From: a virus
Direction: 5' to 3' (one strand)
Length of the DNA stretch: 42,763 nucleotides
Virus record (IMG/VR): IMGVR_UViG_3300036944_000625
Coordinates: 1 to 42,763 of that record
The position numbers and the translations under genes are program-made. Below the pieces are notes generated by a model, which worked only from the letters and a program-made list of their open reading frames with translations, was not told the DNA's origin and made no database searches. Shown piece by piece: positions 7,275 to 42,763 of this stretch (within the stretch, counting starts at the first letter, position 1; the number at the start of each line of letters is the position of its first letter).

Positions 7275-7290
7275 TTGACACCTCGGTCAA
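7275..7290. promoter_or_regulatory. TTGAC-N6-GTCAA operator-like palindrome
   Basis: TTGACACCTCGGTCAA, directly upstream of the ATG at 7274. Member of the family described in the findings. A minus-strand TTGACA (7325-7320) lies 30 bases upstream, but no good -10 is seen. Confidence 0.55.
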
Positions 7291-7334: not shown

Positions 7335-7634
7335 TTAAACCAGTTCGGCCAGGGCGGCGCGCTTCAATTCAATTGGCGCGGACTGTGCGACCGGATGCGC
7401 CAACACAAGCCCCTGTGCAACAATCGGTAGGATCGAATCGTTTACGGCGCGTTGCATCACAGCGGATAGTAACCCATTCATATCGCCAAAAATATAGCTG
7501 ACTAGGCCGTCGCTCAAACCGGCCTCGTGTGCTACTTTCTCGCGCGACATGTAGGAGAGTCCGACCGCCTGCGCAACTCGCAACGCAGCGGAAAGAATCT
7601 GTTCTGTGCGCTCGTCTCTGGTGTACCGTTCCAT
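7335..7634 (-). CDS. TetR-like HTH protein without effector domain
   Basis: 99 residues. The first 55 are a TetR N-terminal DNA-binding domain: RTEQILSAALRVAQAVGLSYMSREKVAHEAGLSDGLVSYIFGD, with the typical helix 1, the tripartite HTH and the pattern (S/L)-x-x-x-(Y)-x-(F). TetR proteins are normally about 200 residues with a C-terminal ligand and dimer domain; here only about 45 residues follow, so ligand binding is unlikely and dimerisation must be different. ATG has GAGG eight bases upstream. A near-match to the TTGAC-N6-GTCAA palindrome lies at 7653-7668, in front of the gene, as expected for autoregulation. I infer it is the phage regulator of those sites; this is not shown by the sequence. 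Confidence 0.75.
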   Translation of the reverse strand: MERYTRDERTEQILSAALRVAQAVGLSYMSREKVAHEAGLSDGLVSYIFGDMNGLLSAVMQRAVNDSILPIVAQGLVLAHPVAQSAPIELKRAALAELV

Positions 7635-7652
7635 TACTTCAACCTCACATGC

Positions 7653-7668
7653 TTGACAATTGCGTCAG
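7653..7668. promoter_or_regulatory. Near-match operator palindrome before the TetR-like gene
   Basis: TTGACAATTGCGTCAG matches TTGAC-N6-GTCAA at 9 of the 10 fixed positions. It lies in the 40-base gap between the methyltransferase stop and the TetR-like ATG at 7634. Confidence 0.45.
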
Positions 7669-29886: not shown

Positions 29887-29914
29887 AACCGGCTCACTCT
29901 GTCAAGGGTGTTAC

Positions 29915-29982
29915 ATTATTGCACGATGTGGCGCGGCGGGCAAGCGATAGGGGTTGACGGCCCAGTCTGGTCGAATTACTAT
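29915..29982. promoter_or_regulatory. Divergent promoter cassette, copy 1
   Basis: Minus: TTGCCC (29943-29938), 17 bases, AATAAT (29920-29915), for the neck and tail genes. Plus: TTGACG (29954-29959), 17 bases, TACTAT (29977-29982), for the PP-loop gene. Bases 29915-29958 recur almost exactly at 32314-32360 (with a 3-base insertion) and in part at 40739-40782. The TTGAC-N6-GTCAA palindrome is broken in this copy. Confidence 0.7.
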
Positions 29983-30014: not shown

Positions 30015-30755
30015 ATGATAGCGGTGTGGTTCTCTCGCGGCGCGGCCAGTGCAGTCGCAGCAAAGTTAACCGTTGATATATTCGGCGCAAGCGAAGAAGT
30101 ACGAATCGTAACTAACCCTGTCATCGAGGAACCCGAAGATAATCTCAGGTTTCAAGATGATGTTGAAAAGTGGTTAGGTGTTCAGATTGAAACCGCCCTA
30201 AACCCGAAGTACCCGAACGCATCCGCTGTTGAAGTGTGGAACGATCGAAAATATATGGCGGGAATCGCGGGTGCGCCTTGCACGTCGGAACTGAAGAAAG
30301 TTGCGCGACAACATTGGGAAAACATCAATGCGCCAGATTGGCACGTTCTTGGGTTTACAGCCGAAGAGACTAAACGCCATAAACGTTTTACCATGGGAGA
30401 AAGAAGTAATGTACTCCCCATGCTGATATGGTGGGGATATACGAAACAAGATTGTCATAATATATTGAGAAATGCCGGAATCAAAGGCCCTAGTATCTAC
30501 CAGAAGGGTTTTCCAAATGCAAACTGCATAGGTTGCGTCAAAGCGCAATCTCCTACGTACTGGAATCTTGTCCGTAGAGAGTATCCGCAAATTTTTGATG
30601 CCCGCGCCGAACAATCCCGCCGAATCGGGTGTAAGCTCGTAAAGCACAAGGGCAAGCGCCTATATCTCGATGAACTTGATCCCAACGCGCGCGGCAGGTC
30701 ACTTAAAGGGCTAGATTTTGAATGCGGGTCGTTCTGTGAGGAGCGCCCTCGTTAA
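30015..30755 (+). CDS. PAPS-reductase/PP-loop family enzyme
   Basis: 246 residues with the N-type ATP-pyrophosphatase fold: PP-loop FSRGAASAVAAKL (residues 6-18) in place of SGGxDS, an acidic segment EEPEDNLRFQDDVEKWLG, then GAPCTSELKK (C89) and GFTAEETKRHKRF. C147, C171, C174, C237 and C241 could hold an iron-sulfur cluster or form a sulfur-carrying site, as in DndC/TtcA-like members. It belongs to a family seen in many phages, often called PAPS reductase; the real reaction is not known. It is a plus-strand insertion among minus structural genes, with its own promoter, and ends next to the DUF4054 gene stop. Confidence 0.8.
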   Translation: MIAVWFSRGAASAVAAKLTVDIFGASEEVRIVTNPVIEEPEDNLRFQDDVEKWLGVQIETALNPKYPNASAVEVWNDRKYMAGIAGAPCTSELKKVARQHWENINAPDWHVLGFTAEETKRHKRFTMGERSNVLPMLIWWGYTKQDCHNILRNAGIKGPSIYQKGFPNANCIGCVKAQSPTYWNLVRREYPQIFDARAEQSRRIGCKLVKHKGKRLYLDELDPNARGRSLKGLDFECGSFCEERPR

Positions 30756-32273: not shown

Positions 32274-32313
32274 TGGAGAATGACTCCGCATTTGGGTTGG
32301 ATTGAGACGGGAT

Positions 32314-32384
32314 ATTATTGCACGATGTGGCGCGGCGGGCAAGGTGCGATAGGGGTTGACAGGTCGGTCAAGGGCGGTTAGGGT
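32314..32384. promoter_or_regulatory. Divergent promoter cassette, copy 2
   Basis: Minus: TTGCCC (32342-32337), 17 bases, AATAAT (32319-32314), for the 32273 operon. Plus: TTGACA (32356-32361), 17 bases, TAGGGT (32379-32384), for the 32426 gene. The plus -35 is the left half of the palindrome TTGACAGGTCGGTCAA (32356-32371). Confidence 0.75.
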
Positions 32385-32425: not shown

Positions 32426-32713
32426 ATGACCAAGATTGTATGCAACGGTTGCTTTGGCGGGTTTGGGCTCAGCCCCGAAGCAATCACCAGATATTCCGTA
32501 CTATCTGGGAAGACGGAAGTATATGAATATGATATCGACCGGACCGACCCGCATCTCGTTCAGGTGGTAGAAGAAATGGGCGCTGCCGCAAACGGTAATT
32601 TTTCGCGCCTGTATGTCGTGGAACTGTCTCCTGGAACGCGATATCGAATCGACGAGTATGACGGGCAGGAGTCCGTAATGACAATTGATGATTACGACTG
32701 GTCCATCGCCTGA
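32426..32713 (+). CDS. Conserved phage protein (CFGGFGLS family)
   Basis: 95 residues beginning MTKIVCNGCFGGFGLSPEA, a start I recognise from a hypothetical family widespread in phages; the rest includes YEYDIDRTDPHLVQVVEEMG and LYVVELSPGTRYRIDEYDG. Function unknown. ATG at 32426 has GGGAGTGTGGG upstream. A one-gene plus-strand island between two minus structural genes, closed by the hairpin at 32721-32748. Confidence 0.8.
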   Translation: MTKIVCNGCFGGFGLSPEAITRYSVLSGKTEVYEYDIDRTDPHLVQVVEEMGAAANGNFSRLYVVELSPGTRYRIDEYDGQESVMTIDDYDWSIA

Positions 32714-36709: not shown

Positions 36710-36895
36710 ATGACTCACTCGTATCAAGTTTACTTGCGGTTCAATCCGTCGTTCGCGGTTCACAATGTTGCGGAAATCATTTGGGAAGGCGATATCGTTG
36801 AATTCCGCGACGAGAACGACAACCCGATCGAAATTGTCCGTCTCGGTTTCGGTGATCGCATTACGCGGGTTGACAACGATGTCAATGCGGGGTAG
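36710..36895 (+). CDS. Hypothetical protein
   Basis: 61 residues, unrecognised: SYQVYLRFNPSFAVHNVAE, acidic strands and IEIVRLGFGDRITRV. GGAAGGTAATGTAAAA precedes the ATG at 36710, identical in part to the leader before 36528. Confidence 0.55.
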   Translation: MTHSYQVYLRFNPSFAVHNVAEIIWEGDIVEFRDENDNPIEIVRLGFGDRITRVDNDVNAG

Positions 36896-36919
36896 GTTGT
36901 AGGGGTTGGCGTAATAATA

Positions 36920-37176
36920 CCGTGTCGAGCGTTTCAAGGACGGACACATGTTGTGTACGGTTAGTCACTCAGAAACGAACAACTCGGCACGGTCGCCAAA
37001 TCGTAGAGTATCCGGTGAAAGCGGGGCATGACACCGGGAGCCGCCTAATCGCGGTACGGCTTAGCCGCTAAGTTTAACCCGCCCAGCGTGAGTAGAGTAG
37101 TGGTCAACGGTACGTGTCACTGCATTTCATGCGAAGCCCGACACGCCAAGTCGCGGGATGTTAGCAGCCGTTGACC
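36920..37176 (+). ncRNA. Possible structured non-coding RNA upstream of tRNAs
   Basis: About 257 bases without a gene but with a chain of perfect or near-perfect inverted repeats. Hairpin A: CCGTGTCGAG (36920-36929) with CTCGGCACGG (36983-36992, one G-U), continuing as CGTTTC (36930-36935) with GAAACG (36972-36977), and an inner ACACA/TGTGT (36944-36956). Hairpin B: CCGGTG (37012-37017) with CACCGG (37032-37037). Hairpin C: AGCCG (37039-37043) with CGGCT (37057-37061), or the alternatives GCGG/CCGC and CTTAG/CTAAG. Hairpin D: GGTCAACGG (37102-37110) with CCGTTGACC (37168-37176), enclosing CGTGTC/GACACG (37113-37118, 37140-37145) and a GCAT/ATGC tip. Directly followed by tRNA genes, so it may be on the same transcript. 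Not a recognised class. Confidence 0.55.
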
Positions 37177-37183
37177 ATCCTTT

Positions 37184-37259
37184 GCCGGTTTAGCTCAGAC
37201 GGTAGAGCTACGGTCCTGTAAACCGTGGGTCGGCGGTTCGATCCCGTCAACCGGCACCA
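37184..37259 (+). tRNA. tRNA-Thr(TGT)
   Basis: 76 bases. Acceptor GCCGGTT pairs with AACCGGC, D-stem GCTC/GAGC, anticodon stem ACGGT/ACCGT around loop CCTGTAA with anticodon TGT, T-stem GGCGG/CCGTC around TTCGATC, discriminator A and encoded CCA. Reads the ACA threonine codon. Confidence 0.92.
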
Positions 37260-37263
37260 ATGT

Positions 37264-37338
37264 AGACCTGTAGCTTAATGATAAAGCTGGCTGCTCATAA
37301 CAGCACAGATGTAGGTTCAAATCCTGCCGGGTCTACCA
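37264..37338 (+). tRNA. tRNA with CAT anticodon (Met or Ile)
   Basis: 75 bases. Acceptor AGACCTG with CGGGTCT (one G-U), D-stem GCTT/AAGC, anticodon arm GGCTG/CAGCA with loop CTCATAA (outer pair is a G-A mismatch), T-stem GTAGG/CCTGC around TTCAAAT, then ACCA. Anticodon CAT at 37296-37298 could be elongator Met, or Ile if lysidine is made at C34. The CCA ends one base before the stop of the convergent head morphogenesis gene. Confidence 0.85.
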
Positions 37339-38523: not shown

Positions 38524-38639
38524 CCCACACTCTCGAACAACTGCAACGCGACGTTGAACTCGCCCAGGAACAAGCCGCACGCGATGCAATCGCTGAGATC
38601 GGCGAGGATGATCTGAATTTTGTGAGGGGTTGGCGATGA
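38520..38639 (+). CDS. Tiny acidic coiled protein
   Basis: 39 residues, MTHTLEQLQRDVELAQEQAA onward, helical and acidic. Overlaps both neighbours as ATGA, so probably real. Unknown function. Confidence 0.6.
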   Translation: MTHTLEQLQRDVELAQEQAARDAIAEIGEDDLNFVRGWR

Positions 38640-38881
38640 CTGACCTCAAACCGTGCCCGTTTTGCGGTGCACCCGCTAAGATGATGAGCATCCCCGGTTC
38701 GTACGGCTACTATCCCGGCAAGCGATTAGTCGGATGTACCGCGTGCGATGCGAGGTCCATAGAATTTGCCGACGAAGAATATGTACCGGGAGATGGTATG
38801 ATATACACGATAGAGGAAGCGGAAAGAGCGGCAATTGAGTGGTGGAATCGTCGCATTAACCAAACCGAGGGTGAGTCATGA
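38636..38881 (+). CDS. Lar-like zinc protein (restriction alleviation family)
   Basis: 81 residues. LKPCPFCGAPAKM, then LVGCTACDARS and the C-terminal AAIEWWNRRI are the Lar_restr_allev pattern (two CxxC pairs and the WNRR end). Lar of the Rac prophage relieves type I restriction; most phage homologues are untested. ATGA overlap with the preceding gene. Confidence 0.8.
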   Translation: MTDLKPCPFCGAPAKMMSIPGSYGYYPGKRLVGCTACDARSIEFADEEYVPGDGMIYTIEEAERAAIEWWNRRINQTEGES

Positions 38882-40714: not shown

Positions 40715-40738
40715 GCGCACGACTCCATGAGACGGAAC

Positions 40739-40806
40739 ATTATTACACGGTTGGGCGAGTGGGGCAAGCGATAGGGGTTGACAGAGCGGTCAATGCGGGA
40801 TAGGGT
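40739..40806. promoter_or_regulatory. Divergent promoter cassette, copy 3
   Basis: Minus: TTGCCC (40767-40762), 17 bases, AATAAT (40744-40739), for the portal genes. Plus: TTGACA (40778-40783), 17 bases, TAGGGT (40801-40806), for the 40841 island. TTGACAGAGCGGTCAA (40778-40793) covers the plus -35. Confidence 0.75.
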
Positions 40807-41766: not shown

Positions 41767-42763
41767 ATCCACTCCGACACATTGCGACCAGCGATCAACC
41801 CGCGACTCGCCGCAATGATAAATGCATCGGCCAAGTTGGGCGACTTAACGTCCCGCTTGGCCAAATCTTTTTTACCCTCGACCATATCGCGCCCCGCCGT
41901 GTCATAGTCGCGCATCGGGGTGGATAGCTCATCGATCAACTTGGTCAACAGTGCCGAGTCGCACGTACTGTCCAGGCTAATCATTTGGTCAGCGTCGTAT
42001 CCGCGCCCTTCCGTAACGGCAAGGTAAGTATTCCTGAACCGATCTGCGACACTAGTCCAGGCTTGCGCTTTCAGGTTCTTGAATTTCTCTTTGTTCGTCA
42101 CCTGTGTATTGCCGTATTTCTTGTCCGGGTCCGATACAGCCGCACCAGCGTTAAATTTATAGTGACTTGTCCATTTCTGTGCATTCAGGTGCGATCCTAC
42201 GAACGCGCCGACGCCGATAGAGTCGTACCCGATAGAGCGCACACCGTGCGCCCGCGCCGTCCCAAGCACCCGACCGACCGATTCGAGCAGTTTATCTTCG
42301 CCACCTTTCCACTCGTCCAGTGCGACACACACAGAACCGCCTAGGACCACACTAGCATTCGCATCTTGCCCCGAGTCCGCTACATCATAGCCAAGTGTGG
42401 AGACGCCGCTCCAGACCCCCTTAGCGGGCGTTACGCGAAGGTGCGCGTCTACAGCCGCTTCGATCCACCGCCGCTTGATGATAACCGAATCGTCGCTATC
42501 GCGCGGTACACCCAGGTACACATGTTGGAATTCGTCAAAGTCTTCCGCCTGTGCCGCCTCAATAACGTCCAACATGGTGCGCGATAGAAACGGGTTTTCA
42601 TCATAATTGATCTTCCGTACCACACTATTCGGAGGCGGATTGATGACGAATCGTTGATAAACGAAGTCGCTCGCAAATCGAGGGTTAAAAATGATCCAGA
42701 TTTGCGAGCCTTCTTTACGGATCGTCGGTTCTAGAATCTTCCATTGTTCTTCGGTTAGATTAT
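41763..42763 (-). CDS. terL: Terminase large subunit, C-terminal part (continues at 520)
   Basis: Continuation of the gene that starts at 520. From the join it reads NYDENPFLSRTMLDVIEAA, VYLGVPRDSDDSVI, then the nuclease domain: GYDVADSGQDANASVV, YDSIGVGAFVGSHL and KAQAWTSVADRF, with aspartates placed as in the RNase H-like headful nuclease. Ends at 41763 with TAG, overlapping the convergent plus-strand stop. About 285 residues of the total 454 lie here. Confidence 0.93.
   Translation of the reverse strand, partial: NLTEEQWKILEPTIRKEGSQIWIIFNPRFASDFVYQRFVINPPPNSVVRKINYDENPFLSRTMLDVIEAAQAEDFDEFQHVYLGVPRDSDDSVIIKRRWIEAAVDAHLRVTPAKGVWSGVSTLGYDVADSGQDANASVVLGGSVCVALDEWKGGEDKLLESVGRVLGTARAHGVRSIGYDSIGVGAFVGSHLNAQKWTSHYKFNAGAAVSDPDKKYGNTQVTNKEKFKNLKAQAWTSVADRFRNTYLAVTEGRGYDADQMISLDSTCDSALLTKLIDELSTPMRDYDTAGRDMVEGKKDLAKRDVKSPNLADAFIIAASRGLIAGRNVSEWI
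42608..42763. repeat. Terminal redundancy of the contig (right copy)
   Basis: Same 156 bases as 1-156, with G at 42734 for T at 127. See the left copy. Confidence 0.95.

Follow-up and report, generated by a model that had tools for sequence, protein, structure and literature searches.

The question at this locus is what lies in the gene-free stretch upstream of two phage tRNA genes. The window analyzed was the whole of virus record IMGVR_UViG_3300036944_000625 (42,763 bases). The gene-free stretch, at the downstream end of a cassette, is flanked by an ORF of 61 residues, which ends at 36895, and by a tRNA-Thr gene, which begins at 37184. The initial annotation had proposed a new structured RNA at positions 36920-37176, built of four helices (A to D), and had named a tRNA-processing leader as one alternative. 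The 288-nt gap (36896-37183) contained no ORF that scored by the codon usage of this genome in a crude caller.

The record probably represents a complete genome, since a direct terminal repeat of 156 bp was present (1-156 versus 42608-42763, 155/156 identical). Genes for portal, capsid, protease, F-like head protein and tail were found in the window, which indicated a small myovirus. By portal protein, the nearest annotated relatives were Vibrio phages CP-T1, 24 and 138, at about 65% identity; CP-T1 is itself a dwarf myovirus of the phiPLPE group (PMC3391216). In the CP-T1 annotation, the structural genes are broken up by cassettes of small genes on the opposite strand, and the window is laid out in the same way. 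A neighboring cassette encodes a Lar-like restriction alleviation protein (38630-38881; Pfam PF14354), and the equivalent CP-T1 cassette likewise has an annotated Lar-like gene. A weak PAPS reductase-like gene (30015-30755; Pfam PF01507, E 1.7e-4) is encoded on the strand that does not carry the tail genes.

Both tRNA genes were detected by ARAGORN and Rfam on the plus strand. The first (37184-37259) is a tRNA-Thr with a UGU anticodon and an encoded CCA. The second (37264-37338), with a CAU anticodon, was called Met, and its 3' end abuts the F gene. Its acceptor pairs C4:G69 and C5:G68 are as in tRNA-Ile2, and it may be a tRNA of this kind, decoding AUA after lysidine modification. The pair would read ACA and, if tRNA-CAU is of the Ile2 type, AUA. 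ACA and AUA are minor codons here, accounting for 13% of Thr and 6% of Ile codons, respectively.

The proposed excess of pairing was not seen over the named stretch as a whole. Its 257 nt folded at z = -0.09, and 81 of 200 shuffles folded as well. Of the shuffles, 2.9% had two stems of 11 bp or longer, and the window contained 19 perfect stems of at least 10 bp with loops under about 65 nt. Taken helix by helix, the excess held for A (see below), was modest for D, and disappeared for B and C. Helix B (37012-37037, plus strand; CCGGTG/CACCGG) was present but no better than chance (z -0.74). The same was true of helix C (z -1.24 for 37040-37078), whose region (37039-37072, plus strand) offers the alternative stems AGCCG/CGGCT and CTTAG/CTAAG.

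Helix D (37100-37178, plus strand) existed as described. It consists of a 12-bp stem with G-U pairing (37100-37111/37167-37178; 10 bp Watson-Crick) enclosing an inner stem, CGTGTC/GACACG (37113-37118/37140-37145), and ends 5 nt before tRNA-Thr. Four of 200 shuffles matched its stability (z -2.3). In the 280-nt leader, on the other hand, helix D competed with a long-range fold, and the middle part likewise had competing folds. We regard helices B, C and D as uncertain.

These results are consistent with a reading in which the stretch is mostly spacer or decayed sequence, such as remains of tRNA or cassette DNA, with pairing largely due to chance and only the promoter (described below) and the tRNAs of importance. 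The lack of homologues pointed the same way, as did a weak internal similarity between 37003-37068 and 37092-37168. This similarity had initially hinted at a duplication involving the middle and D parts, but in a fair test it gave P 0.07, and the duplication was discarded. Decayed tRNAs were also unsupported, and this counts against the reading: no degenerate tRNA was detected in the gap even at lax settings.

A promoter was recognized from the sequence at 36870-36898 on the plus strand, with a -35 element TTGACA (36870-36875), a 17-nt spacer and a -10 element TAGGTT (36893-36898). The initial annotation had reported the gene-free stretch and its helices, and had overlooked this promoter. Transcription is predicted to start at about 36905, approximately 7 bases past the -10 element. 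A generic sigma-70 scan did not list the promoter because its -10 element departs from TATAAT.

The -35 element is overlapped by a 16-bp dyad, TTGAC-N6-GTCAA (36870-36885, not assigned to a strand). Eight exact copies occurred in the window (6661, 7275, 16657, 32356, 35428, 36870, 38245 and 40778), with about 0 expected. Vibrio phage CP-T1 contained 6 copies (0.01 expected), some at cassette borders. The eight copies are apparently the operator of a phage regulon. At four of them (32356, 36870, 38245 and 40778), a -10-like element, TAGGGT, TAGGTT or TAGAGT, followed at a spacing of 16-17 nt. Three repeats in other intergenic parts of the window led to the plus-strand promoter motif, GGGTTGACA-NNNN-GGTCAA-NGCGGG-TAGGGT. 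Repeats of 46-82 bp at 29913-29958, 32303-32384 and 40728-40806 bear a minus-strand motif, TTGCCC-N17-AATAAT. This motif probably represents promoters for late expression of the structural genes, lying back to back with those on the plus strand.

All three sister promoters (32356, 38245 and 40778) were followed by a protein cassette of small genes, with nearby genes beginning at 32426 (alternatively 32384), 38311 and 40841. Downstream of the 36870 promoter there were just the gene-free gap and the two tRNAs, on the same strand and with no gene between. We consider the predicted promoter and operator well supported by sequence.

A candidate for the operator-binding protein is a short TetR-like protein encoded at 7335-7634 on the minus strand (Pfam TetR_N, E 1.3e-6), 36% identical to CP-T1 gp14. 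Its gene adjoins the dyad at 7275 and a one-mismatch site at 7653. TetR-like regulators have been noted in phiPLPE, CP-T1 and 138 (PMC3391216). The TetR-like protein probably binds the 16-bp dyad.

When the gap was folded together with its flanks, helix A, present as described, proved longer by a basal stem of 6 bp. The extended hairpin A (36906-36999, plus strand) is 94 nt long, with 6+11+6 bp. The basal stem (TTGGCG/CGCCAA, 36906-36911/36994-36999) is followed by a 7-nt bulge (36912-36918) and a middle stem of 11 bp including one G-U (36919-36929/36983-36993). The upper stem of 6 bp (36930-36935/36972-36977) is set off by a 5-nt bulge (36978-36982). With the basal stem included (36904-37001), the z was -4.41, and none of 200 shuffles was equally stable.

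To locate the signal, a 98-nt window was moved in 3-base steps. The z was -1.8 for a start at 36899, -4.2 at 36902, -4.7 at 36905, -3.7 at 36908 and -2.3 at 36911. The folding signal of hairpin A thus starts at one sharp position, with its peak at 36902-36905, and the base of the hairpin coincides within a few bases with the predicted transcription start. The first 98 nt of the sister transcripts were unstructured (z -0.36, 1.74 and 1.14). About 0.4% of the 98-nt windows of the genome reached z -4.4, and hairpin A is therefore notable, not unique. Folding statistics and position together support it as a predicted structure. Such a hairpin at the predicted start argues against the stretch being mere spacer or decayed DNA, which we judged somewhat unlikely.

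The junction was compared with loci of relatives that carry an F-like head gene, and none of those examined had a tRNA there. In L008, a locus that shares the DUF4406 gene, no tRNAs separate the small cassette genes from the adjoining head-protein gene, and tRNAs were likewise absent from the junction in L024, L025 and L027. The tRNA-free junctions suggest that promoter, leader and tRNAs form an inserted segment, although the compared loci are only 42-57% identical in the F-like head protein.

Searches for homologues of the leader gave no relative. The Rfam search suggested in the initial annotation, run at gathering and lax thresholds, matched only the tRNAs and no family in the gap. The highest-scoring candidate below threshold there, a Bacillus-plasmid RNA at 37100-37187, reached 17.5 bits against a cut-off of 31; its score came from a short stretch, GUCAACGGUA, and we regard it as chance. 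Similarity searches of phage and plasmid collections with the leader DNA gave merely chance matches of 20-26 bases. Exact scans of viral contigs with leader motifs gave either no match or two 16-mers that lacked flanking similarity and were judged coincidental. A scan anchored on the tRNAs gave one contig, whose upstream region appeared unrelated by eye. Nothing beyond chance emerged from the complete records of 14 relatives and tRNA-bearing contigs, and neither a portal-based genome scan nor 369 genomes sampled in the class to which the Sessilibacter prophage carrier belongs yielded any leader. An integron attC site was also considered and rejected by eye, as the core sites were wrong in order and sequence.

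The claim of a new family of structured RNAs lacks support, because no homologue was found and only hairpin A clearly beats chance; a new structured RNA as such is possible. What stands of that claim is a predicted non-coding transcript, partly structured through hairpin A, under its own promoter and operator.

We favor, at a probability of roughly 45%, a separate tRNA transcription unit in which the stretch is a 5' leader. This was one alternative named at the outset, and it fits best; a promoter upstream and tRNAs on the same strand with no gene between are what a tRNA operon with a leader should show, and they are present here. The unit would comprise, in this order, the promoter (36870-36898), a leader of some 280 nt, tRNA-Thr and tRNA-CAU, and it would occupy one of the cassettes that, in this phage group, lie on the opposite strand and split the structural genes. 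Transcription would begin at about 36905, at or a few bases from hairpin A, and the small TetR-like phage protein would control it via predicted binding to the 16-bp dyad. Hairpin A would close the 5' end of the precursor and most likely shield it from decay that depends on that end.

The ompA mRNA has a protective stem-loop at its 5' end. Hairpin A is also strong and predicted to be at or near the transcript 5' end, but it precedes tRNAs, and its protection is putative. RNase P would then cut before 37184, freeing the tRNAs and the leader RNA. In the phage T4 tRNA cluster, the stable RNAs C and D are similarly non-coding, co-transcribed with tRNAs and freed by tRNA-processing enzymes, as proposed for the leader; they are shorter than the leader, and the tRNA cluster that surrounds them is larger.

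The tRNA unit is favored by the unexpected number of exact dyads, three of them before cassettes, by the enrichment of the dyad in CP-T1 together with a TetR-like protein in both phages, and by the tRNA-free junctions of L008, L024, L025 and L027. Hairpin A, at a predicted start where the sister transcripts are unstructured, also favors it, as does the folding of leader and tRNAs together (z -2.52). On the other hand, the entire leader alone gained only slightly over shuffles (z -1.49) and had no detected homologue. The absence of the promoter from the generic sigma-70 list, the lack of a visible terminator after the tRNAs and the share of windows folding as well as hairpin A also weigh against it. 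Furthermore, 180 further bases are superfluous for a protective hairpin.

Alternatively, the leader could have a job of its own once freed from the tRNAs by RNase P, as a small RNA acting in trans or as a decoy for a nuclease or defence system of the host. A dedicated promoter in a compact genome, a gene-free stretch of 280 nt kept below it and the strong first hairpin all agree with this. There is also precedent in phage RNAs of unknown function near tRNAs, namely GOLLD and ROOL (PMC12286853). However, no relatives appeared in the phages, plasmids and Rfam models searched, and the bulk of the leader folds like shuffled sequence. No target was found; a lone 14-base match, in the capsid gene, was at chance level. 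We consider such a job unlikely. One specific form of it is a new operator-controlled phage RNA of about 280 nt that is freed from the tRNA precursor, acts in trans and begins with the 94-nt three-part hairpin. It might, for example, counter a host defence that attacks tRNAs, and it is improbable.

A coding role was suggested by a possible 27-codon ORF (36948-37031, plus strand), which starts within hairpin A, extends beyond it and has AAGGA seven bases before its ATG. Hairpin A might then control translation of the peptide, or translation might control the tRNA genes. We estimated such a signal to be about 8% likely by chance in this length. No homologue was found, and the ORF contains just two Thr codons. 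The ORF may be due to chance, and a coding leader is very improbable.

GOLLD and ROOL are often near tRNA genes, have elaborate conserved folds and form multimers, and many GOLLD RNAs exceed 800 nt (PMC12286853); theta ribozymes lie at tRNA 3' ends and are linked to tRNA maturation (PMC10879173). Location beside phage tRNA genes is all that would place the leader in one of these families, and membership is hardly credible at the sensitivity of the searches: no Rfam covariance model for GOLLD or ROOL matched at gathering score, the gap is far shorter than GOLLD and without an extensive fold above chance, where a large, pseudoknotted multidomain fold would be expected of GOLLD or ROOL, and the element is 5' of tRNA-Thr, whereas theta ribozymes cut no more than 5 nt from the 3' end of a tRNA, and here the 3' end of tRNA-CAU abuts the F gene. 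The HDV-like nested double pseudoknot with a catalytic C in J4/2 was sought with our own descriptor, uncalibrated on known theta ribozymes, which gave 0 matches on either strand.

Phage tRNAs are common, and the timing and manner of their transcription are seldom known. As a separate transcription unit, this tRNA pair would be a cassette with an independent promoter, controlled by an operator that other accessory cassettes share and that is apparently conserved in relatives such as CP-T1. The arrangement offers a testable model of timed tRNA expression. If the leader is a stable RNA, it would be one more among the few phage RNAs beside tRNA genes.
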